From positions 1 through 35,189 of IMG/VR virus record IMGVR_UViG_3300042566_000938: a stretch of 35,189 nucleotides of DNA. One strand, 5' to 3'. The notes below the pieces were generated by a model, which saw only the letters and a program-made list of their open reading frames with translations, did no database searches and was not told the origin of the DNA. Positions 1-35,189 of this stretch are shown here, piece after piece (position 1 is the stretch's first letter; every line of letters starts with the position of its first letter). The stretch is from a virus. Both the position numbers and the translations under genes were made by a program.

Positions 1-127
1 TAAAACATCTGGCTCATAAAAGCTTGGATCTGCCCAAAGCATCTTTACATCATAATCATCAAATAACTTTTGGATGGCAGCGTTCACTTCTTGGCGATCA
101 ACAACCCAATCTGGATCCGTTGGATCT
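1..127. repeat. Left copy of 127-bp exact terminal repeat (contig overlap)
   Basis: Bases 1-127 are identical to 35063-35189. The repeat lies inside the large terminase gene and joining the two copies keeps that frame open. 127 is the largest k-mer commonly used by de Bruijn assemblers, so this is most simply the overlap left when a circular or circularly permuted molecule is assembled, not a biological terminal repeat. Unit length after removing one copy is 35,062 bp. Confidence 0.95.
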
Positions 128-1230
128 GGTTCCCAAACGGCATGGACTTTTAGGGTTCCAGTATTGATATCGCAAATAACTATTCCAGTTGAGTCGCCGC
201 TTACGGATCCATCAAAGCCAGCGGTTATAGTTGCGCCTAATGGGATACTAGATTCTCTTTTAGCCTCTAGCCAGAAATGAGGGCTAATGAAATCCTCGCC
301 CGCTAGCCTGACCCATTGATTTAGGCGATATCTTTGGAAGCCAGCAAAGCCAGCTGATCCAGCTGAGGCAATCGAAGCATCAAAATCTCCTAGATCTAAA
401 AGACCTTCGGCTAAATTTGGATTAGCTTTTCGCCAAACCTCTGGATCTGTTGGATCGGCATCCTGGCCAGCTTCCCACCACCAGAATCCAAATTGAGGAT
501 CAATCTCGCCTTTAGATTCTGAAACTCTTTTTCCATGCTCATAAAGCCTGCCAAGTAAAGTATCTGTTCGCCCGCCTGCTGTGGTAATGCCGACCACTAA
601 TGATTCAGGTCTGTCGGCACTTCCTTGGGTAAGGGCATCCCAGAGTTCATCTCCCCTTGTATTTGTCGGAGATGATGGCCAAGCATGAAGCTCATCGGCA
701 ACGACTAGGGATGGGGCCAATCCATGCGCTCGCATAGCATCGGCAGATAGCGCCCTATAAACGCTTCCCTTGCTAGGGACTTCCATCGCATCTCTATAAA
801 CTTTGATAACTCGATTTAGAGCTGGATTATCAAGAACCTGAGATCGGGCCTCTCCAAATACGATCCTGGCTTGAGCGCGATCTGATGCGGCGGAATAGCA
901 TTGAGCGCCCTCTGGCCCGTAAAGAATATGCTCAAGCGCCAGCGCGGTTCCTAGTAAACTTTTGCCATTCTTTCTTGGAAGCCCTATAACTGCCCTACGA
1001 TAGCGAAGTAATCCCGTATCTGGATTAGTTTCTAAAAGACTATCGATTAGCCATCTTTGCCATGCTGTAAATACTAAAGGCTCGCCTGCTCTAAAGCCTC
1101 GGCTGGCCCTAAGTAATAGCTCGCTAAAATCGGCAACATCGGGGCCTCTAGTATCCAAAGAATTAGCAGGGACAAAAAAGGCTGGATTCCAATCTTGACT
1201 TGGAGGCCTTAGCCCCCATTCAGCGGTAAT
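1..1230 (-). CDS. terL: Terminase large subunit, N-terminal 410 codons (continues at 35062)
   Basis: ATPase-nuclease motor that packages DNA into the prohead through the portal. This part holds residues 1-410; the last 100 codons are at 35062-34760. A Walker A-type motif GLPRKNGKS lies at residues 83-91, Walker B with the catalytic acid (ADE) at 178-180, and a nuclease-type Asp in FDGS at 340. The overall pattern resembles the Terminase_1 family. The start is unusual. The frame has a TGA a few codons upstream and no ATG, GTG or TTG before the conserved N-terminus; an ATT at 1230-1228 sits behind a good GAGGTGA ribosome site. A TTG about 20 codons later has no such site. The gene overlaps the 3' end of the upstream HTH gene by 22 bases, suggesting coupled translation. 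Confidence 0.93.
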   Translation of the reverse strand, partial: MTAEWGLRPPSQDWNPAFFVPANSLDTRGPDVADFSELLLRASRGFRAGEPLVFTAWQRWLIDSLLETNPDTGLLRYRRAVIGLPRKNGKSLLGTALALEHILYGPEGAQCYSAASDRAQARIVFGEARSQVLDNPALNRVIKVYRDAMEVPSKGSVYRALSADAMRAHGLAPSLVVADELHAWPSSPTNTRGDELWDALTQGSADRPESLVVGITTAGGRTDTLLGRLYEHGKRVSESKGEIDPQFGFWWWEAGQDADPTDPEVWRKANPNLAEGLLDLGDFDASIASAGSAGFAGFQRYRLNQWVRLAGEDFISPHFWLEAKRESSIPLGATITAGFDGSVSGDSTGIVICDINTGTLKVHAVWEPDPTDPDWVVDRQEVNAAIQKLFDDYDVKMLWADPSFYEPDVL

Positions 1231-1595
1231 GGTTTCACCTCAACATTTGGGCTAGTCGCTTGCTTTTTTCCATAATGTTCTGGGGCTGATCTCTCAAGCC
1301 ACCAAGCAGCTGCCTGCCATTGGCCATCCTGGGCAGCTTTTTGGATAGTCGATACATTACGCACAATCGCGCCAGCCCTGGCCTGAGAGATCTCGATCCA
1401 TAGATCATAGAAAGCTAATTCCTGAGGATCTATCTGATTGCCCTGGCCAATTCTTTGGCTCTCTAGCTTGCCTCGCTCTAGCCACTTATAGACTTCGGCG
1501 CTGCTTAGCCCAGCAAAGTGGCAAGCGGTATCTAAATCGGATCCTGATCTTATAGCCGTAACTAGATTTTTCAGGCGGTCATCTTGGGGATTCAT
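1209..1595 (-). CDS. Small HTH DNA-binding protein, possible terminase small subunit
   Basis: A 128-residue protein directly upstream of and overlapping the large terminase. Residues about 18-42 look like a helix-turn-helix of the type used to choose a DNA site (AxxAGLSxxxVYKWLERG), followed by a helical segment and a charged linker. Position and size fit a terminase small subunit that recognises the packaging site. A second, P27-type small terminase lies at 6346-6861, so this one may be an accessory packaging protein or a regulator. The start ATG directly follows the folE stop (TAA-ATG), so the two are probably co-translated. Confidence 0.65.
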   Translation of the reverse strand: MNPQDDRLKNLVTAIRSGSDLDTACHFAGLSSAEVYKWLERGKLESQRIGQGNQIDPQELAFYDLWIEISQARAGAIVRNVSTIQKAAQDGQWQAAAWWLERSAPEHYGKKQATSPNVEVKPLPLNGG

Positions 1596-2150
1596 TTAGT
1601 TTGATCTATCAACCAGGGATAGAAATTCATGTCTAGCGGCAGGATTATCGCGGAAAGCGCCTCGCATAATATTAGTTCTCATAGATCCCTTAGTTCTGAT
1701 CCCGCGCATTGACATACAGCTATGTGATCCATCAATAACGACAGCAATATGATCGCTACCAGTTACTTCCTGGATCTCGTTGGCAATCTGCTCGACCAGG
1801 CGCTCTTGAACCTGAAGCTTATGAGCATGGCGATGAGCGATTCTGGCAAATTTGCTTAGCCCTAAAACTTTATCGCCTGGGATATAAGCAACGCTAACAG
1901 TCGCGCTAAAAGGAAGTAAGTGATGTTCGCAAAGGGAGTGGATCTCCATGCCAGTAACGGCAACCATCTCATCCGTTGGGCCTAATGTAAAAGCAGTTGC
2001 TACTTTGCCTGGATCGTAATCTATAAACTCAGACCACCATTTGGCATATCTCTGAGGGGTATCTTTTAGCCCATCTCTATCTGGATCCTCGCCTATTGCT
2101 ATAAGCAGCTGGCGGGCCAAATCGGCAACGAGTTCTTTATTTACGGACAT
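1596..2150 (-). CDS. folE: GTP cyclohydrolase I
   Basis: Converts GTP to 7,8-dihydroneopterin triphosphate, the first step of both folate and 7-deazaguanine synthesis. The 184-residue product is near the normal length. Zinc ligands of the type I enzyme are visible as C74, H77 (in CEHH) and C145 (in SHSCMSMRG), and the GLSKFARI and RTxGSMRTN segments are typical. The start at 2150 was chosen because its ATG overlaps the queE stop by one base (TAATG); a longer reading frame upstream would cover queE and lacks family similarity. It sits in an operon with queE, queD and queC, so its job is to feed preQ0 synthesis and not folate. Confidence 0.95.
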   Translation of the reverse strand: MSVNKELVADLARQLLIAIGEDPDRDGLKDTPQRYAKWWSEFIDYDPGKVATAFTLGPTDEMVAVTGMEIHSLCEHHLLPFSATVSVAYIPGDKVLGLSKFARIAHRHAHKLQVQERLVEQIANEIQEVTGSDHIAVVIDGSHSCMSMRGIRTKGSMRTNIMRGAFRDNPAARHEFLSLVDRSN

Positions 2151-2851
2151 TAGCGGCCTCTTTCTTCTTCCCAAGCTAGAACATGGATTCGGGTTGATAA
2201 ATTCCAACCTCTATTTACAATAGCATTAGCCAGCGCTTGGAGATGCGCGACATGATCTTTTATTGTAATGCCTTCGGGCATGATCCATACTGATTCTTTA
2301 GGAATATCAAACTGATCAATAAGATCCTGGACTTCATCAAGATCTGATTCTTTCTCAGCCACAAACTTAAAAATTGCTTTGCCCTGGCGCGCTAGATCGC
2401 TAAAGGCTTTATAAGCCTCAGGGATAACCCTACGATCCTCTGGATCTCCAGCATGAGCCAGCTTAGGGCTAACGCAAAATAGATCAACGCAATCAATAGT
2501 ATCTTGCTTAGGAACCCTTGTTCCATTTGTCTCGATGTCGATTTTTAGGCCAGTCAAAGCAAATAGTTCGGGATAGCCATGCTGTTGGAGTAAAGGCTCG
2601 CCCCCAGTAAGAATCAGTCTATTGATTCCCATCTGATTGAGCTGATCAGCGATCTCCGCAATCTCTACTTTATGGCTTTCCTCATTACGATCAAATTTTT
2701 CCCAATCCCATGAATATGGGGTATCGCACCATGAGCAAGTTAGATTACATCCAGCAACTCTTAGGAAGCCAACTAGCTGGCCAGCATGAGGGCCTTCGCC
2801 CTGGATCGTTGGGCCAAATATTTCATTGATATTTAGATGCTTAGCCAACAT
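2150..2851 (-). CDS. queE: 7-carboxy-7-deazaguanine synthase (radical SAM)
   Basis: Radical S-adenosylmethionine enzyme that contracts the ring of 6-carboxytetrahydropterin to 7-carboxy-7-deazaguanine. The 233-residue product has the iron-sulfur cysteine motif CNLTCSWC (C35, C39, C42), the FxPTIQGEG substrate loop near residues 12-20, and the SAM-binding GGEP at 83-86. The start ATG at 2851 lies inside the last codons of queD (11-base overlap). An in-frame start 15 codons further up would extend deeper into queD and adds no conserved sequence. Product of FolE and QueD steps feeds it; its own product feeds QueC. Confidence 0.94.
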   Translation of the reverse strand: MLAKHLNINEIFGPTIQGEGPHAGQLVGFLRVAGCNLTCSWCDTPYSWDWEKFDRNEESHKVEIAEIADQLNQMGINRLILTGGEPLLQQHGYPELFALTGLKIDIETNGTRVPKQDTIDCVDLFCVSPKLAHAGDPEDRRVIPEAYKAFSDLARQGKAIFKFVAEKESDLDEVQDLIDQFDIPKESVWIMPEGITIKDHVAHLQALANAIVNRGWNLSTRIHVLAWEEERGR

Positions 2852-3284
2852 ACACCGCCGAATTAGCGCCATGCTCAAAACATTCAGCTGATACAACTCG
2901 GCATCGATCAGATAGCCCCAGATCTTTTAGGACTTGCTCGGCAAATTGATAAGCCTTCTTAGCAAATAATTCGCAACCAACGCCATCCATAATAGTCAAG
3001 CTAGCCAGGCCCATTCCCTCAAGCGCCTGAAAAGCGCCCAGCTTTGGATCATCGCTTGCCACGATCGTCTTATGATCAAAAGCCTTTTCTAGCTTTTCCT
3101 TTAGGGGCTTTAGTGATCCAAAATCAACAACCCAATTTCGCTCATCTAGCTCATCAGCCTCAAATATAAACTTGAAGCCCAGCGCATATCCATGTAGCTG
3201 ATTACAATGTGAATTAGCGCGCCATTGTCTAAATGTTGCGCTTAGGCCCAGATCAGGGCCATAAGTCTTAGTTGAGCGGTACAT
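2841..3284 (-). CDS. queD: 6-carboxy-5,6,7,8-tetrahydropterin synthase (QueD-like)
   Basis: Second step of preQ0 synthesis, acting on dihydroneopterin triphosphate. The 147-residue product keeps the catalytic Cys (C27), the D70-H71 pair and Glu (E134 in SAEC) and the VVDFGSLK strand of the family. It departs from the classic zinc site: the HGH of the Escherichia coli enzyme is HGY here (H31, Y33), and the N-terminal His position appears to be F18. H26 next to C27 could replace a ligand. I recall similar HGY forms in other phage and bacterial QueD-like proteins, so this may be a natural subgroup. The gene overlaps its upstream neighbour by 17 bases and queE by 11. Confidence 0.88.
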   Translation of the reverse strand: MYRSTKTYGPDLGLSATFRQWRANSHCNQLHGYALGFKFIFEADELDERNWVVDFGSLKPLKEKLEKAFDHKTIVASDDPKLGAFQALEGMGLASLTIMDGVGCELFAKKAYQFAEQVLKDLGLSDRCRVVSAECFEHGANSAVYVG

Positions 3285-3723
3285 TATTATGTTCCTTTAT
3301 TAGGTCGGAGTAAACTTTCATAATTTGGCCAAATCGTTTGCCCTCAGTAATCCTAATAGCATGGGGCCAAATCTCTTTACATAAATTGTAATAATCAAGC
3401 CCGCCAAATACTATAACTTTTGGGGCTAGATCTATGCCTTGTTGCCTGGCTTGCGATTTTACCTTATCGGCAACAATCGATCCTGGCCTGCCCATTCTTA
3501 GCTTGTATGGCTCGACCAAATCATCAAGCTTGAGCAATCCATGTTTGGCGGACATTATTCGAATTTGCTTTTCATCAACTTGGGTCAAAGCATATTTCAA
3601 TGCTAGGGTAAATAATCCCCCAACATAGAGATGCCTTGCTTGGGTTTTATAATCGACTTTAGCAGATCCGCAGCTGACTATTATTAGATAATCAGGCGTG
3701 ATTATAGGGGTATCTATATCCAT
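3268..3723 (-). CDS. DUF6884-like protein in the deazaguanine cassette
   Basis: A 151-residue protein starting at ATG 3723; an in-frame TTG 9 codons upstream lies further inside the neighbouring gene. The N-terminus IIVSCGSAK, then ARHLYVGGLF and later MSAKHGLL, match my memory of the DUF6884 family, small soluble proteins of unknown biochemical role with a nucleotide-binding look. It overlaps the XapX gene upstream by 10 bases and queD downstream by 17 bases, so it is tightly built into the cassette. A role in handling the 7-deazaguanine base or its nucleoside is inferred only from that position. Confidence 0.6.
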   Translation of the reverse strand: MDIDTPIITPDYLIIVSCGSAKVDYKTQARHLYVGGLFTLALKYALTQVDEKQIRIMSAKHGLLKLDDLVEPYKLRMGRPGSIVADKVKSQARQQGIDLAPKVIVFGGLDYYNLCKEIWPHAIRITEGKRFGQIMKVYSDLIKEHNNVPLN

Positions 3724-3869
3724 GTTTCTATTATGATATAGCCCAGCCAAACGCCAAATACCCCAATAACTCCCGCAAGGGTAACGGGGGCGGGAAGTGG
3801 CAACTTAAAAAAACTAAAAATCGCACCCAGGGCTACGCCCGAAAGCATCGATAACAGCATTGTTTTCAC
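3714..3869 (-). CDS. XapX-domain mini membrane protein
   Basis: A 51-codon gene read in the gap between queC and the DUF6884-like gene. The product has two hydrophobic segments separated by a short linker with LPLPAPVTLAGVIGVFG, the recognisable core of the XapX (DUF1427) family, whose members are about 50 residues with two predicted membrane helices and unknown function. The GTG start at 3869-3867 overlaps the queC stop (GTGA); an ATG three codons in (3860) is the alternative. Its 3' end overlaps the next gene by 10 bases. Coupling on both sides makes it part of the deazaguanine operon. A membrane role such as precursor uptake is only a guess. Confidence 0.75.
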   Translation of the reverse strand: MKTMLLSMLSGVALGAIFSFFKLPLPAPVTLAGVIGVFGVWLGYIIIETWI

Positions 3870-4579
3870 TCAGCTGCTTTCCTAGCTATCTCGCTAAGTG
3901 CGAAATCGATCTCCACATAGTCAGTTGGATCCTCTACGCCAGCATCAAGAAAAGCCTCTATACGCTCTACGCAAGTCCCACATCTACCACAATGGATTTC
4001 TCCGCCTTTATAGCATGACCAAGTGATCGAGTAATCAACTCCAAGCTCATGGCCCATACCAGCTATATCAGCCTTGGTCAGCTCTACGAATGGGGCAACT
4101 AGAGCGAAGTCGCCTGGGGCATGGCCCTCTGTCCCATATTGGAAGGCTAGAGAAAGGGCATCAATAAACTGAGGTCGGCAATCTGGATAGATATAGTGAT
4201 CCCCAGCATGAACGCCAGTTGCTACAACAGATGCGCCTTCGGCTACTGCTATGCCCGTAGCGATTGAGAGCATGATCGCGTTACGATTAGGAACGACAGT
4301 CGCCCTCATGGTTTCCTCGGCGTAATGGCCATCTGGAACATCGACATCGCCAGAAGTCAAGCTAGATCCATGTAGAACCTGGCTTAGGATCTGGAGATCT
4401 ACGATCCTTACTGGGGCGCTTAGGCGCTCGCCAAGCTTCTCTAGGTAGCTAAGCTCTTTCTTATGGCGCTGGCCATAATTGAAGCCAACTAGGATCAGAT
4501 CGAAGCCTAGCGACTTATAGAGGTAAGCCAGGGTGGCGGAATCCATACCGCCAGAGGCAACAATTACGGCTTTTTTCAT
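3866..4579 (-). CDS. queC: 7-cyano-7-deazaguanine (preQ0) synthase
   Basis: ATP-dependent conversion of 7-carboxy-7-deazaguanine plus ammonia to preQ0. The 237-residue product has the PP-loop SGGMDS at residues 9-14, the VPNRN motif near 96-100, and the four-cysteine zinc site C189, C197, C200, C203 in an SCYKGG...CGRCGTC context. Length is normal, and no amidotransferase domain is fused to it, which argues against the Gat-QueC route to amidino-type modifications. It starts 11 bases after the dpdA-like stop with a purine-rich AAAGAGA ribosome site, and its stop overlaps the XapX start. Confidence 0.95.
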   Translation of the reverse strand: MKKAVIVASGGMDSATLAYLYKSLGFDLILVGFNYGQRHKKELSYLEKLGERLSAPVRIVDLQILSQVLHGSSLTSGDVDVPDGHYAEETMRATVVPNRNAIMLSIATGIAVAEGASVVATGVHAGDHYIYPDCRPQFIDALSLAFQYGTEGHAPGDFALVAPFVELTKADIAGMGHELGVDYSITWSCYKGGEIHCGRCGTCVERIEAFLDAGVEDPTDYVEIDFALSEIARKAAE

Positions 4580-4590
4580 TTTATCTCTTT

Positions 4591-5748
4591 CTAGTTCTTG
4601 AGCGGTCGCCCAGAAAGTTTGTAATCTGAATAATCAACAACGGGGTGGATATTTGGCCCAACGCTTTTTATAAGCTGATCCCCATCTTTAGACCATACCA
4701 TATGAACCTGAGGGCCATTTTGATCTACGGCCTCAAAGTTCTGAACATCGCTATCTACAAAGTGAATATTGGGGCCTTTAGCATCTTTATAGAAATTAGT
4801 AGCCGTTGTGGCGATATGGACATTTGGGCCTTTATCAGCCAGGCGGGTTCCCTTGCCCTCATGAATAAATCCTGCCTCTGGCTTAGCAGCTTGCTGCCAA
4901 TAGCTAAAGGCTGTATCTACCTGATGGATATTTGGGCCAATAAGAGGCTCGCGCAATCCATACTTAGGAGGCTCGACCTGAAATCTATCTCTCAAATAAT
5001 CCTCAAGTAGCTGAGCATTCTTGATAGCTAGTAAAACTAAAACCCTTTTATTCTCAGGGGTGCTAAATTCTATTTCCTCTGGGGTGACCCCATCATACCA
5101 ATCATGAAGCAGCTGGCGGTATTCGTAAGGCTCTTTTCCATCGTGTCGAAATCTAACAAATCGCTTTTTCTCTGGATCCCATAGTCGCGTTCTGGCATAT
5201 CGCCAGGTTGATCCAAAGCCAGATGAATCAACTGAATAGAATGGCAGATTTAGAATTAGCTCTGGATGGGTAACGCCCCAGCCATGAAATCTCATATTTG
5301 GGTGATTCTCTTTGGCATATCTAAATACTGATAAGCACCATCGAAGCAGCTTTTTTTCTTGAGATCTTTGGCTGACCATTCCCCCTAAGCCAACATAATC
5401 AACCCCATCAGCGGCGTATTGATCTAAAACTTTTGGATCCTGGCCAAAGTGGATCGTGGGGATCACATCTAGGCCCATTCCCTTTAGGGCTTTATAATTT
5501 TGCCAAGATCCTTTTTCATCGCCAATAACATCAAGCGATGCGATCCAACATAAGCTATCTTTCCACTTATGGCCCCAAGCGGCAAACTCATCCATCTGAA
5601 TTGGCTGGCCTAAGCTCATAGCAGAGAAAGCGCCCGAATCGCCAATTAGCCTAAAACCCCAGCTGGCCATCTCATCAATATTGCGATTACGGTAATAGTG
5701 ATAGCTTACCAATCCATTTACGGGGTAGCGAAGGATTGGGTTAGTCAT
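4591..5748 (-). CDS. dpdA: DpdA-like DNA guanine transglycosylase with repeat tail
   Basis: Predicted to swap guanine in DNA for preQ0 or a derivative, by analogy with tRNA-guanine transglycosylase and phage DpdA. The catalytic region covers about residues 1-265: DSGAFSA (D37), SLDVIGD (D73), GLGGMV (121-125), HGWGVT (155-160) and VDSSGFGSTW (173-182) are the expected barrel motifs. Residues 271-385 are an unusual tail with five copies of GP(N/Q)(I/V)H at 271, 307, 325, 345 and 364, spaced 36, 18, 20 and 19, so a sixth degenerate unit may lie in the first gap. I do not recognise this tail. The gene overlaps the ParB-like gene by 8 bases and leads the queC to folE run. Confidence 0.85.
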   Translation of the reverse strand: MTNPILRYPVNGLVSYHYYRNRNIDEMASWGFRLIGDSGAFSAMSLGQPIQMDEFAAWGHKWKDSLCWIASLDVIGDEKGSWQNYKALKGMGLDVIPTIHFGQDPKVLDQYAADGVDYVGLGGMVSQRSQEKKLLRWCLSVFRYAKENHPNMRFHGWGVTHPELILNLPFYSVDSSGFGSTWRYARTRLWDPEKKRFVRFRHDGKEPYEYRQLLHDWYDGVTPEEIEFSTPENKRVLVLLAIKNAQLLEDYLRDRFQVEPPKYGLREPLIGPNIHQVDTAFSYWQQAAKPEAGFIHEGKGTRLADKGPNVHIATTATNFYKDAKGPNIHFVDSDVQNFEAVDQNGPQVHMVWSKDGDQLIKSVGPNIHPVVDYSDYKLSGRPLKN

Positions 5749-6346
5749 TGTTTAGAGCCTCTAGCGCTGCTAGGGCTACTAAGTTGATCTGCTCGATCTT
5801 ATCGCCAACGCCAGTTGCCTTCATGGCAGCTTTTAGATTTTCATGAACATCGATTGGCAGCTTCATGCTGACATCGATTAGATCATCATCATCCTCATGA
5901 TCGCCAACTAGCTTAGCAAGCTCATCAAGATCGGGGGCCTGGCCCCAAAGCTTATTTAGATCAGAAATATCTTTTTCGGTAAATCCTGTTGCCTGGATCA
6001 AATCGGAATCTAAATCTTTGAGGGCTTTTAGAAGGACATCAGAATCCCATTCGGCCAGCTCGGAGGTTCTATTATCGGTTAGGGCATATGCCTTTGCCTC
6101 ATCTTTTGACCATTCGGCGGGGGTTCGGCTGATCGTAATTTCATCCCAGCCTAATTCCTTAGCGGCTTGAAGGGTTCCATTACCAGCTATGACTGTATCA
6201 CCATGAACAACGATTGGCCTACGCTGGCCAAATCTATCTAGTGATGATCTGATAGCCGCGATATTTTTTGGGCCATGAGTTCTAGCATTTTCAGGATCAA
6301 ATTTTAGGGTGGAGATTTTTACTGTTTCGATAATAAGGGCGGTCAT
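5741..6346 (-). CDS. ParB-like (ParB/Srx fold) nuclease-domain protein
   Basis: A 201-residue protein with a clear ParB/sulfiredoxin-type domain in the first 110 residues: the NARTHGPKN, SLDRFGQRRPIVV and VIAGNGTLQAAKELG segments. The C-terminal half is acidic (a DDDD stretch near residue 153) and lacks the helix-turn-helix of a plasmid partition ParB. Phage versions often sit beside DNA-modification or methylase genes and may bind or nick DNA using nucleotide. Its ATG overlaps the P27 terminase stop (ATGA), and its stop overlaps the dpdA-like start by 8 bases. It may help target modification, but this rests on context. Confidence 0.8.
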   Translation of the reverse strand: MTALIIETVKISTLKFDPENARTHGPKNIAAIRSSLDRFGQRRPIVVHGDTVIAGNGTLQAAKELGWDEITISRTPAEWSKDEAKAYALTDNRTSELAEWDSDVLLKALKDLDSDLIQATGFTEKDISDLNKLWGQAPDLDELAKLVGDHEDDDDLIDVSMKLPIDVHENLKAAMKATGVGDKIEQINLVALAALEALNND

Positions 6347-6861
6347 CAGTTAGCGGCTTTCTGTCGGGCTTGTCTGCGTTTCTCTAAATCGTCTAATGGA
6401 TCATTTGGTCTAATTTCGGCCAGTCCAAGTCTAGCCCTATCTGCGGGTGAAAAGCCTAAAGCAGCGAACCAAGCCGTTAGCTGTGTTCGGCAATCTTTTA
6501 GCTGACCAATAAAGGGATGAGATACTTGCTGGCCATTACTCGTTGTATAAAATCTTGGGACCTCGCCCAGGCTGATAGCCCGTCTAAGGTATTCTGCCTC
6601 ATCAAACATTTGACAGGCCATCGTGATCAATGTGGAATCTGCGGCGGGGCTTAGCCATGTTGATCCTGCTGACCAGATCTGATTCCAAAGCTCTAAGCCA
6701 TCTGGCCCTAACGGCGGGGCTGTCGGGATCCCTAAGGCTGCCTCTAGCCCTTGATTTGGCATGGGTGGATCTGGCAAGGGTCTGCCCCCTGGATTACCCA
6801 GCGAGCGCTTTACTTCTATTGGCCTGGCTGGTCTGCCAGCTGGCCTTCCTGTATTAGCCAT
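6346..6861 (-). CDS. terS: Terminase small subunit, P27 family
   Basis: A 171-residue protein resembling the P27 (Terminase_4) small subunits, which pair with Terminase_1 large subunits as seen here. The N-terminus has an AT-hook-like GRPAGRPARP followed by KRSLGNPGGRPLP. The middle holds the ELWNQIWSAGSTWLSPAADS segment, the YTTSNGQ and HPFIGQL positions, and a GFSPADRARLGLAEI C-terminal motif. It probably recognises the packaging site. The start ATG at 6861 lies within a CCATGCGG-type repeat. It follows the HNH gene, a common order in cos phages, but is separated from the large terminase by the whole modification cassette. Confidence 0.85.
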   Translation of the reverse strand: MANTGRPAGRPARPIEVKRSLGNPGGRPLPDPPMPNQGLEAALGIPTAPPLGPDGLELWNQIWSAGSTWLSPAADSTLITMACQMFDEAEYLRRAISLGEVPRFYTTSNGQQVSHPFIGQLKDCRTQLTAWFAALGFSPADRARLGLAEIRPNDPLDDLEKRRQARQKAAN

Positions 6862-7086: not shown

Positions 7087-7437
7087 TTAGAATTTTCTTT
7101 TAGGTCGCTGACCCCTGATCGATTGATTCCCCTCGTGGCTGGTCTTATAGCGATGACAATGAGGCGGAGATGAATCATGAACAGCAGCTAGGTTGGTAAG
7201 GCTATGATCATCATTAGGCTGGATATGATCAACCCGATCAGCGCCAGGTTTGCCACATAAATAGCAGATCCCCTTATCCCGCCTTAGGACTATCAAGCGC
7301 CTAGTGCGCCAATCAGGGGGCAATCTCTTTGCGCGATTATGGCCAAAGAAGGGGGGCCTAGTATGAAGCTTACAAGTCCCATTACTGACGGCCAGATCAT
7401 AGCAGCCAGGCTCTCGGCAAGGGGTAGGGGCTAAGAT
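7087..7437 (-). CDS. HNH endonuclease (packaging-associated)
   Basis: A 116-residue HNH protein. An N-terminal zinc-finger-like part (C7, C12, C22, H25) precedes the HNH core: C58-x2-C61, the D70-H71 pair, N82, C94-H95 and H101. HNH proteins beside terminase genes assist end cleavage during packaging in cos phages. An in-frame TTG at 7323 would remove the first 38 residues, including the recognisable finger. The frame is open back to a TAG near 7444 and has no ATG, GTG or TTG before the finger. An ATC at 7437-7435 directly after a GGGGGAAAAG ribosome site is the best start, so this is a second gene with a rare start codon. Confidence 0.8.
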   Translation of the reverse strand: MLAPTPCREPGCYDLAVSNGTCKLHTRPPFFGHNRAKRLPPDWRTRRLIVLRRDKGICYLCGKPGADRVDHIQPNDDHSLTNLAAVHDSSPPHCHRYKTSHEGNQSIRGQRPKRKF

Positions 7438-7466
7438 CTTTTCCCCCTAGCGCTTATGTATCCTTG

Positions 7467-7564
7467 TGGACTGGGAGGGAATCGAACCCTCATATCTCGG
7501 TAAGCTTAGGCCAGCGGGATAATCCCGCCAGCTTAGGCTTTTAGAGTCGAACCTTGTCCAGCCC
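7467..7564 (-). tRNA. tRNA-like or tmRNA-like element (non-canonical)
   Basis: Reading the minus strand, GGGCTGG (7564-7558) pairs with CCAGTCC (7474-7468) over seven positions with one G-T wobble, like an acceptor stem. Before the 3' strand stands a textbook T arm, GAGGG-TTCGATT-CCCTC (7491-7475), with an A at the discriminator position and no encoded CCA. The inside does not fold as a normal tRNA: there is no T at position 8, no clear anticodon arm, and a large hairpin around GCGGGATTATCCCGC. The 5' segment with GGTTCGAC recalls the start of actinobacterial tmRNA, yet the element is only 98 nt. It could be a degenerate or type II tRNA, a minimal tmRNA-like RNA, or an old attachment site copied from a host RNA gene. 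Confidence 0.4.
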
Positions 7565-7679
7565 TGGGAAAGTGATTCCCGCCAACCAACCCCTCAACAC
7601 TAGCGCCGAATGGGCTTTAGGCCTGGCGCTAATGGAGCCACCTTCTACATAGAGTAAAGGGCGAACGGGGCCAAATTGT
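7565..7679. other. Non-coding leader of the tRNA-like element
   Basis: No convincing gene lies here. A short frame across it overlaps the gene ending at 7680 and the RNA-like element and has no family likeness. A six-pair hairpin AGCGCC/GGCGCT is visible near 7602-7630. It is probably the 3' end of the early transcript. Confidence 0.35.
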
Positions 7680-8033
7680 TCAGCTATTCCAGAACCAGAA
7701 TTCGGTCTTGGCTGAGTAAGGCATATCGTCATGCTTTAGATCCAGCTCGATATAGAAAGCCTCTCCATTAGCCGTCAGGGCATCCATAAAGGCCTCAGCA
7801 TCAAAGGTATAGGCATAGCCCAGGGTTCCAAATCGCCTTAGGCCCTCTTGGATCGAGTTCTCAGGATCATAAAGATCAGCCAGGGCCTCACCAGCCTCAT
7901 TATGAAGCCAAGCCCCCATGAATGATTCTTTGATGTAGTTATCAATAGCGGTTTCATCGCCATAGCCATCTTGGATCATTACTTGCTTTAGGGCATCAGC
8001 GATCTCTTGATTTTCTTGTGGATTTAGGCTCAT
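7680..8033 (-). CDS. Hypothetical acidic protein
   Basis: A 117-residue protein I do not recognise. The ATG at 8033 overlaps the preceding stop by one base (TAATG); a longer frame upstream would lie inside that gene. The sequence is acidic and aromatic-rich, with a C-terminus EFWFWNS, and has no signal peptide or membrane segment. It is the last protein gene of the early run and precedes the tRNA-like element. Confidence 0.7.
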   Translation of the reverse strand: MSLNPQENQEIADALKQVMIQDGYGDETAIDNYIKESFMGAWLHNEAGEALADLYDPENSIQEGLRRFGTLGYAYTFDAEAFMDALTANGEAFYIELDLKHDDMPYSAKTEFWFWNS

Positions 8034-15243: not shown

Positions 15244-15540
15244 ATGACGCGATTTGATTTAAATAAAGATTGGTTTGATCTGATGGATGCCATAGATCAG
15301 GCTGAGGATCAAACGCCTTGCGTTAGCTATCCAGATGCTTATTACCCCGAAAAAGGCTCTAACCCAGATCGTTGGGAAACTATGATGGCCCTAAAGCTCT
15401 GTCAGGATTGCCCCGTAAAGCAAAAGTGCCTGGAATACGCCCTAAAACACGAATCTAAAGGGATCTGGGGCGGAATGCTGGCCCAACAAAGGAAGCTAAT
15501 TAGGCGAAATCTCGCCCAGGATCAGGACCATTCGGCCTAA
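15244..15540 (+). CDS. whiB: WhiB-family iron-sulfur transcription factor
   Basis: The only plus-strand gene in the genome. The 98-residue product has the four cluster cysteines C26, C53, C56 and C62 and the GIWGG turn at 73-77, then a basic end (QQRKLIRRNL). WhiB proteins occur only in actinobacteria and their phages; they bind sigma factor region 4 and redirect transcription. The start is fixed by the leaderless-type promoter immediately upstream. Its last 45 bases overlap the 3' end of the convergent sigma-like gene. Confidence 0.93.
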   Translation: MTRFDLNKDWFDLMDAIDQAEDQTPCVSYPDAYYPEKGSNPDRWETMMALKLCQDCPVKQKCLEYALKHESKGIWGGMLAQQRKLIRRNLAQDQDHSA

Positions 15541-33354: not shown

Positions 33355-34763
33355 TAGGCCTCTGTTATCTCATCTGTTCCGCCTGCTCGGCCTGCTAGAT
33401 TAGCGACTACTGGATTTTCTGTCGCTGCTAGGCTGGCCTGGGCTAGATTAGAAACTAAATTATTGGCTGCGGCTGCTTCCTTCTCGGCCATCAAAACGGC
33501 CTTATCGGTTTCGCTCAATCCGATTCTATTGTAAGTGATCTCAGAATCAGGCAATAAAACGCCAGCTGATATTAGCTTGACCGCTTCGTCTGCTGCGGCT
33601 GCCCTGGTTGGCGTTGCTGGATCTCTCCATATTGGCCTAATCTCATTTGCCTCGGCTGGGACTGATCCATCTCTAACCAATAGAGCCAGGCGCGCTACCT
33701 CTGACCAAGTACGGCCAAATTGTCTTTGCCTTCTCTCGGCTCTCTTAACCAATCTAGCCTCCATCTGGCGGATCGCATCCGCGCTTGATGGGTTATCGGT
33801 CTGGAATCCAAGATAGCTGGATGGAATAGCTGTCTCGGCAGCCAATAGCTGAGCGTAAGCTCGGATCTGCTCAAAGTAAGGGCGGGTGTCATTAGCCTGA
33901 AATTGGCCAACTTGCGGCATTACATTTTCGGCTTCGTTATAAGGAATACCTAAAACTCGACCCTGGTAAACAGACCAAGGATTGAGGGGCCTGCCATCAG
34001 CATCAAGGAAAACATCTTCCGATGCGCCAAGAATGTAGCGCTGTGGGGCTGAGTAGAACTCTCTCGCAACTTCGGCCCCAAGCAAGGTTCTCATAGCGCT
34101 ATCTGTATAGCTTCTTACTGCCCTAGTAATTTCTGTTCGACCATAAGGATCTCCAGATCTTGGGTTATTAGGAAGCTGAGCAACTAAAACCCTGCCAAGG
34201 TTATGAATATCCCGATCAACATCCATCCATCTGCGATTATTCCACTCAAGGAATATTGTTTGATCTGGCAGATACATTGTTCCGCGAACTGGCGCGCCTG
34301 AATCATCTCTATCTACTAATAGGGCAGAGGATAGCCTTCTGGTTCTCATATCCCAGATAGCCGTCATTTTTTTAGGCGATTCGATAGTAATTAGCGGATC
34401 AGGTTCGCCATCAATACCGCGCCCAATAGTCACAAATCCTGTTCCAAAAATTAGGGCATCTTTGTGGCCCATAGAGCTTTCCAGATCCATTTGGTTCATA
34501 CGGAAAATATCATTGATTCCAAGATCAGCCTGATCAATAAAGCCTTCCAGATCCAGGCGTTCCTCTAAAACATCAACGGCTGTGCCAGCCCAGCCCACTA
34601 CTGTTTCGACAGATGTGAGCTGAGGCGGGATCGAGATCCTAAGATCCTTTAGCTTATTGCGGCCATAGTAATAGCGCTCTAAGACAAAGTTTTTAGTATC
34701 ATGCTTTTGGAGTTTGCGAAATAAATAATCTAGTAGATCGACTTCATCAGAAGTTAGGCTCAT
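33354..34763 (-). CDS. Portal protein, SPP1 gp6-like
   Basis: A 469-residue protein, the twelve-fold ring at the head vertex. YYYGRNKLKDLRISIPPQL near residue 30, GWAGTAVDVLEERL and the DNPSSADAIRQMEARLVKRAERRQ segment in the second half are characteristic. Alanine-rich C-terminus. It overlaps the large terminase stop (ATGA). Confidence 0.92.
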   Translation of the reverse strand: MSLTSDEVDLLDYLFRKLQKHDTKNFVLERYYYGRNKLKDLRISIPPQLTSVETVVGWAGTAVDVLEERLDLEGFIDQADLGINDIFRMNQMDLESSMGHKDALIFGTGFVTIGRGIDGEPDPLITIESPKKMTAIWDMRTRRLSSALLVDRDDSGAPVRGTMYLPDQTIFLEWNNRRWMDVDRDIHNLGRVLVAQLPNNPRSGDPYGRTEITRAVRSYTDSAMRTLLGAEVAREFYSAPQRYILGASEDVFLDADGRPLNPWSVYQGRVLGIPYNEAENVMPQVGQFQANDTRPYFEQIRAYAQLLAAETAIPSSYLGFQTDNPSSADAIRQMEARLVKRAERRQRQFGRTWSEVARLALLVRDGSVPAEANEIRPIWRDPATPTRAAAADEAVKLISAGVLLPDSEITYNRIGLSETDKAVLMAEKEAAAANNLVSNLAQASLAATENPVVANLAGRAGGTDEITEA

Positions 34764-35189
34764 AGGATCATTGCCCTTCGGTTATTGTTCATTTTCCGGT
34801 CTTTGGTTGCTTGCCTGGCCCCATTAGCCAATACAGCGCAAGCTAGTAAGTCAATTTTACGGGGCGAATTCTTTTTCTCTTTGCGAAAGCTTCCAGCTTC
34901 GGTTGCTACGGCATTGAGAACATGGCGCTCTAATGTCTTATCGCCATCATGGCCTATTTCTTTTGCTACTATATCAGCGATAAATTGCTGAGCTAGGGGG
35001 GCCATGCGGCCATTTGTCGGAGGTATTCTTTCTACTCTTTTACGCCATTGTTTTGACCATTCTAAAACATCTGGCTCATAAAAGCTTGGATCTGCCCAAA
35101 GCATCTTTACATCATAATCATCAAATAACTTTTGGATGGCAGCGTTCACTTCTTGGCGATCAACAACCCAATCTGGATCCGTTGGATCT
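34760..35189 (-). CDS. terL: Terminase large subunit, C-terminal part (continues from position 1)
   Basis: Open at the right edge of the window; after removing the 127-base repeat it supplies residues 411-510 of the large terminase. A nuclease-type acidic motif, RKIDLLACAV (Asp about residue 481), pairs with D340 in the other part to bind the metal for DNA cleavage. An apparent ATG at 35149 (residue 382) is internal and not a real start. The stop overlaps the portal start. Confidence 0.92.
   Translation of the reverse strand, partial: DPTDPDWVVDRQEVNAAIQKLFDDYDVKMLWADPSFYEPDVLEWSKQWRKRVERIPPTNGRMAPLAQQFIADIVAKEIGHDGDKTLERHVLNAVATEAGSFRKEKKNSPRKIDLLACAVLANGARQATKDRKMNNNRRAMIL
35063..35189. 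repeat. Right copy of 127-bp exact terminal repeat
   Basis: Identical to bases 1-127. It is best read as assembly overlap of a circular map; the true physical ends of the virion DNA are not shown by it. Confidence 0.95.

Follow-up and report, generated by a model that had tools for sequence, protein, structure and literature searches.

We analyzed the virus record IMGVR_UViG_3300042566_000938 of IMG/VR over its entire length (positions 1 to 35,189; hereafter, the window), which contains at positions 1596–6346 a cassette of genes predicted to place a 7-deazaguanine base in phage DNA. Our results suggest that this cassette is of the type known from the phages Rosebush and Saguaro, that it includes an extra DpdC-like step encoded by a DUF6884 gene and that its most likely end product is 2′-deoxy-7-amido-7-deazaguanosine (dADG). 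We assign a probability of about 0.5 to this reading as a whole. The core of the cassette is of a known kind, and neither the cassette nor its placement beside the terminase genes is new. What is new relative to the Rosebush type is the presence inside the cassette of DUF6884, which probably remodels the inserted base further.

Relationship of the DUF6884 protein to bacterial DpdC

The preliminary description of the window had seen no further enzyme that would alter the base, and had therefore predicted 2′-deoxy-7-cyano-7-deazaguanosine (dPreQ0) as the modified nucleoside. This conclusion was not supported as it stood, because the cassette contains a DUF6884 protein that is related, as judged from its sequence, to bacterial DpdC and whose predicted fold is nearest to YaaA and then to an ArcS homologue. 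DUF6884 is reported to be the Pfam domain found in DpdC (PMC11888242), which converts dPreQ0 to dADG (PMC12839542). It also bears a distant resemblance to YaaA, and its CxxxK and LSAxxG motifs are conserved (PMC11701544). The window protein presents these motifs as CGSAK and MSAKHG, and C27, K31, S67 and G71 are invariant across 12 DUF6884 members from cassettes.

The PADLOC models of DpdC match the window protein (3e-4 and 1.3e-3), and an hhalign comparison of the 12 cassette proteins with three bacterial DpdC proteins yielded a probability of 93% (E 3e-7). All three DpdC proteins retain C-x3-K and S-A-x2-G, and the Pfam DUF6884 model matches one DpdC at 4.8e-5, below its cut-off. One of the three was taken from a dpdC-dpdB-dpdA run in which dpdB and dpdA were named by position and sequence. 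The window protein (160 amino acids) aligns with the N-terminal part of DpdC alone and does not present the architecture of about 310 amino acids. Its predicted structure (predicted local distance difference test, pLDDT, of 87.5) is best matched by YaaA (Z 8.8), followed by AF0587 (Z 6.5). The latter was identified as an ArcS homologue because the ArcS of phage nt-1 finds it at 3.3e-8, over the CxxxKPY stretch. ArcS was also considered as a direct relative of DUF6884 and rejected: the profile comparison with nt-1 ArcS gave no sequence match.

Distribution of DUF6884 in viral cassettes

A scan of viral contigs by DUF6884 only recovered 72 distinct loci, with Que or Dpd genes in the flanks of 33 and directly abutting (≤117 nt) in 30; the profile used was drawn mostly from cassette members, which biases the cassette fraction upward and so tells against our reading. 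The gene orders differ among these loci (DpdA-DUF6884-QueC, QueC-DUF6884-QueD and others), and some consist of bare ParB-DpdA-DUF6884 trios. When the scan was conducted by QueC only, DUF6884 was found in 11 of 55 cassettes. Across 127 distinct QueC cassettes, 39 contain DUF6884 and 18 contain QueF, and none contains both. Such exclusion is expected if DUF6884 targets the nitrile, since this is the group on which QueF acts. The cassette label was also found to be clustered on the DUF6884 tree, with 14 changes versus 30 on shuffled labels.

Core cassette and comparison with known cassettes

An overlapping run of FolE, QueE, QueD, QueC, DpdA, ParB, DUF6884 and XapX genes had been proposed, together with a self-sufficient route from GTP to 7-cyano-7-deazaguanine (preQ0) beside DpdA. 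Profile matches placed every one of these genes as proposed, on the minus strand (Table 1), and the closest phages share the core cassette. FolE, QueD, QueE and QueC, which form the preQ0-route gene set of Rosebush-group cassettes, are all present. The gaps between neighbors range from −58 to +11 nt, such that the cassette forms a single overlapping minus-strand run. Its GC-content is 0.453, compared with 0.463 for the remainder of the genome. The window QueD scores under the TIGR03367 cut-off, yet it matches phrog_2389 with high significance (2.6e-38). As a separate observation, a QueD variant shared by the window (2841–3284) and another viral locus (L015, 10950–11396) presents FRQWRANSHCNQLHGY where SAGH...C..LHGH is the norm, so that at least one of the usual metal-ligand histidines is replaced.

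The structural model of DpdA (mean pLDDT of 69.5, with a better core and a poor tail) matches tRNA-guanine transglycosylase (TGT) structures, one of them with preQ0 bound. Residues D37 and D174 are invariant in 14 sequences and, as assigned by motif, would correspond to the catalytic aspartates; no solved structure was matched when DpdA was compared by sequence. The viral-contig scan by the window DpdA singly gave no matches, and an alignment-based scan succeeded. Of the QueC loci, the one whose DpdA is closest (L049) turned out to be a different phage. The preliminary description had also reported that QueF and an ArcS-like enzyme were not visible, and we reached the same result: the QueF profile had no match near QueC in the window, FolE alone giving a weak T-fold match, and the ArcS core (DUF5591, PF17884) had no match in the window.

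In the phage collection searched, the window DpdA matches Rhodococcus phage Finch, Mycobacterium cluster-B phages and Gordonia phage Sour, among others. The order ParB-DpdA-QueC-QueD-QueE-FolE is common to the window and to the Rosebush/Saguaro-type cassettes of Ares, Saguaro, CRB2, Sour and Finch. In most viral cassettes, as in Finch, Sour, Saguaro and CRB2, the gene immediately before DpdA is ParB. The cassette is followed directly by the terminase small subunit (terS) and large subunit (terL) genes in Mycobacterium phages Saguaro and CRB2, and directly by terL in Gordonia phage Sour and Mycobacterium phage Ares, whereas in Rhodococcus phage Finch the same core is distant from the terminase genes. 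The window differs from this type in that XapX and DUF6884 separate QueC from QueD and a P27 terS lies upstream of the cassette; the window DpdA shares only 38–45% identity with the DpdA proteins of Finch, Sour, Saguaro and CRB2.

Two other systems share parts of this organization. The bacterial dpdABC system, which produces dADG, resembles the window in combining a CxxxK/SAxxG protein with a TGT-like DpdA and a partner of the ParB superfamily. However, bacterial DpdC is about 310 amino acids long relative to 160 for the window protein, and the DpdB found beside DpdC is about 376 amino acids long, unlike the short phage ParB. The window open reading frames (ORFs) that we examined included none of the dpdD-K restriction genes. 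The viral cassettes of the 2′-deoxy-7-aminomethyl-7-deazaguanosine (dPreQ1) type (L011–L018) contain the QueC proteins closest to that of the window (67–70% identical), and in several of them FolE is followed by an Sf6-like terS. Unlike the window, they possess QueF, a second ParB and a different DpdA (phrog_887), and they are without DUF6884.

Several accessory features were observed across viral Que cassettes. The XapX-like protein of about 51 amino acids is found in six independent cassettes (the window, L015, L022, L070, L231 and L278), adjoining QueC, QueD, FolE or DpdA. In several viral cassettes, FolE reaches about 300 amino acids and has an N-terminal stretch resembling a phosphoribosyltransferase domain (LIVDDLIDT; L230, 3071–3973; L032, 7936–8835). 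Finally, a DpdA-QueF-QueC cassette (L164), near which QueD, QueE and FolE were not found, encodes between ParB and QueF a YhhQ-like membrane protein, recognized by eye, that is possibly a preQ0 transporter (7148–7861).

Predicted end product and alternative explanations

In the pathway that we propose, FolE, QueD, QueE and QueC would convert GTP to preQ0 and DpdA would swap guanines of the phage DNA for preQ0, probably aided by the ParB-like protein in finding DNA or loading on it. The nitrile of the base thus introduced would then be the target of DUF6884, which would most likely hydrate it to the carboxamide of dADG; the attack may come from the invariant cysteine of CxxxK, as in QueF. DNA modified in this way would withstand host restriction. 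We lean slightly toward a step on the nitrile, whether DpdC-like or other, and dADG itself is proposed as a tentative prediction.

Several additional observations weigh against this interpretation. The window QueD presents an altered metal-site motif in the alignment, and the window DUF6884 forms a long branch of unsure placement, with weak support, in the DUF6884/DpdC tree. A profile built from the three DpdC proteins gave no match to the window DUF6884; this three-row profile also gave no matches in the measured phages, a result that we did not take as evidence of absence. When only the unbiased scans by QueC and DpdA are considered, the exclusion of QueF falls short of significance (p 0.067). 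dADG has been measured in phages 7-11, MED16 and CP220 (PMC8306585), and the expectation that these would carry DUF6884 failed, as no DUF6884 match was found in any of the three. Finally, phage Ares carries its DUF6884 (L404, 5921–6391) outside the cassette, on the opposite strand and right after terL. Ares belongs to the genus of Rosebush, whose DNA contains almost exclusively dPreQ0 and almost no dADG (PMC6884629), so this gene bears on whether DUF6884 alters dPreQ0. DUF6884 is likewise found outside the cassette in Finch, CRB2 and Saguaro; on the tree, the Finch and CRB2 copies belong to a group of their own that is well supported.

It is possible, if less probable, that the end product is dPreQ0 and that DUF6884 leaves the base alone, serving instead to bind or scan DNA, to help DpdA or to repair DNA, as suggested for YfjM and YaaA. 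Indeed, the core gene set by itself yields dPreQ0 in Rosebush and CAjan, where it represents respectively ~28% and ~32% of G (PMC6884629). The DUF6884 of Ares outside its cassette, the many phages that contain DUF6884 without Que genes and the presence of the DUF6884 protein YfjM among DNA-lesion interactors (PMC11701544) are all consistent with this alternative. In contrast, the location of DUF6884 inside the cassette in many unrelated viruses, abutting DpdA, QueC or QueD, its absence from every QueF cassette and its retention of the motifs common to DpdC argue for an action on the base.

An action on the base need not be hydration. DUF6884 might add a group other than water to the nitrile, such as an amine as in ArcS, leading to an undescribed 7-substituted deazaguanine. 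The second-best solved match of the DUF6884 model, the ArcS homologue AF0587, points in this direction, but its Z of 6.5 is under the level that is trustworthy by itself, the direct comparison with nt-1 ArcS finds nothing and the closer relative by sequence is DpdC; we consider this outcome unlikely. QueC, QueD, QueE and FolE also serve the queuosine pathway of tRNA, and the genes could in principle supply queuosine of host tRNA rather than modify phage DNA. This appears highly improbable, since the phages with the most similar DpdA and ParB have kin that carry the base in their DNA and since no QueA, QueG or QueF was seen among the cassette genes.

An exchange site between P27 terS and terL

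The cassette had been described as separating HNH and P27 terS from terL. HNH and P27 terS are indeed located upstream and TerL downstream, but a second terS, missed in that description (1209–1595, between FolE and TerL), stands directly before terL. Along the direction of transcription, the order is HNH, P27 terS, ParB, DpdA, QueC, XapX, DUF6884, QueD, QueE, FolE, Sf6-like terS (phrog_4102), TerL and portal. Every gap from P27 terS through the second terS is ≤11 nt and most are overlaps. The promoter scan revealed no internal promoter that stands out (11 promoter-like sites versus 14.9 expected), and it is plausible that the cassette is co-transcribed with terL.

We further compared 34 loci of close relatives with both genes, whose TerL is close to that of the window (74–86% identical). 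The premise that terS and terL usually adjoin was confirmed, as P27 terS and terL are adjacent in 23 of these loci, mostly overlapping and with nothing recognized between them. Five loci present P27 terS, the Sf6-like terS and terL, and six present ParB and cargo genes between P27 terS and the Sf6-like terS. Cargo was never seen without the second terS (Fisher p 3.4e-4, uncorrected for kinship). The idea that the placement is unusual was only partly upheld, since Ares, Saguaro, CRB2 and Sour have the same core directly before their terminase genes and since modules are swapped between P27 terS and terL in this phage group.

The cargoes comprise Mom (L087 and L088); in L095, a Tet/JBP oxygenase accompanied by a protein that belongs to no known family; in L116 and L118, a phosphoadenosine phosphosulfate (PAPS)-reductase-like protein together with an SSF transporter and a second ParB; and in L092, an ABC/GNAT protein with a formyltransferase. 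Their family names suggest that these cargoes modify DNA. ParB-led modules likewise occupy this slot in the related phages L075, L094 and L166. The window's closest neighbor on the TerL tree, at 87% identity, carries the PAPS-reductase cargo at the corresponding position, and at least six changes are needed on this tree to account for the presence of cargo. A ParB-like gene was found within 5 kb upstream in 56 of the 74 distinct loci with an Sf6-like terS. The slot between P27 terS and terL is therefore an exchange site for modules that are led by ParB and apparently serve DNA modification; the 7-deazaguanine cassette is one of its occupants. One could speculate that the site takes whole DNA-modification modules, with the Sf6-like terS as a module component that lets the terminase recognize or package modified DNA, but we regard this as doubtful.

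Genome organization and feature coordinates

The two ends of the record share an exact direct repeat of 127 nt, which indicates a circular and complete assembly of about 35,062 bp; the preliminary description had not noticed this repeat. The minus strand carries nearly all genes of the phage. Among the few plus-strand genes is one encoding a WhiB-like regulator (15244–15540), and the phage also encodes a CW_7 endolysin. These two genes suggest that the host of this small phage is an actinobacterium.

Table 1. Positions in the window of the cassette genes and of the neighboring packaging genes.
Feature	Position	Strand	Evidence
HNH endonuclease, upstream border of packaging module	7087..7323	-	PF01844 3.1e-4, slightly below cut-off
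P27-family terminase small subunit, upstream border of exchange site	6346..6861	-	PF05119 4.2e-9; 53-66% identity with P27 of relatives
ParB-like protein, cassette gene 1	5741..6346	-	phrog_620 2.7e-35
DpdA, predicted DNA-guanine transglycosylase	4591..5748	-	phrog_7068 1.7e-85; TGT fold Z 16.6; D37, D174 invariant
QueC, predicted preQ0 synthase	3866..4579	-	PF06508 2.1e-61; TIGR00364 188 bits (cut-off 150); SGGMDS loop and four cysteines
XapX-like small membrane protein, 51 amino acids	3714..3869	-	TIGR03510 3.3e-14, above cut-off
DUF6884 protein, DpdC-related	3268..3750	-	PF21818 8.9e-19, 68 bits (cut-off 30); CxxxK and SAxxG motifs
QueD-like protein, variant metal-site motif	2841..3284	-	PTPS 3.2e-14; phrog_2389 2.6e-38; alignment
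QueE, predicted radical-SAM 7-carboxy-7-deazaguanine (CDG) synthase	2150..2896	-	phrog_2076 8.6e-61; CxxxCxxC as CNLTCSWC
FolE, predicted GTP cyclohydrolase I	1596..2207	-	PF01227 2.8e-57; TIGR00063 above cut-off
Second, Sf6-like terminase small subunit, downstream border of exchange site	1209..1595	-	phrog_4102 3.5e-27; 46-52% identity with copy of relatives
TerL, first 386 amino acids; gene spans record ends	1..1158	-	TerL_ATPase PF03354 1.2e-17; 127-nt terminal repeat
TerL C-terminal end beyond record join	34760..35189	-	ORF repeats the sequence ending the TerL frame at position 1

Implications

Should DUF6884 be the viral counterpart of DpdC, dADG or another base would be present in the DNA of many phages that could be annotated as producers of dPreQ0, and a function could be given to a frequent gene that now has none assigned. 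The swap site indicates that what appear to be DNA-modification chemistries are exchanged among related phages at a fixed spot beside their packaging genes, and it offers a simple route for finding new modification modules.

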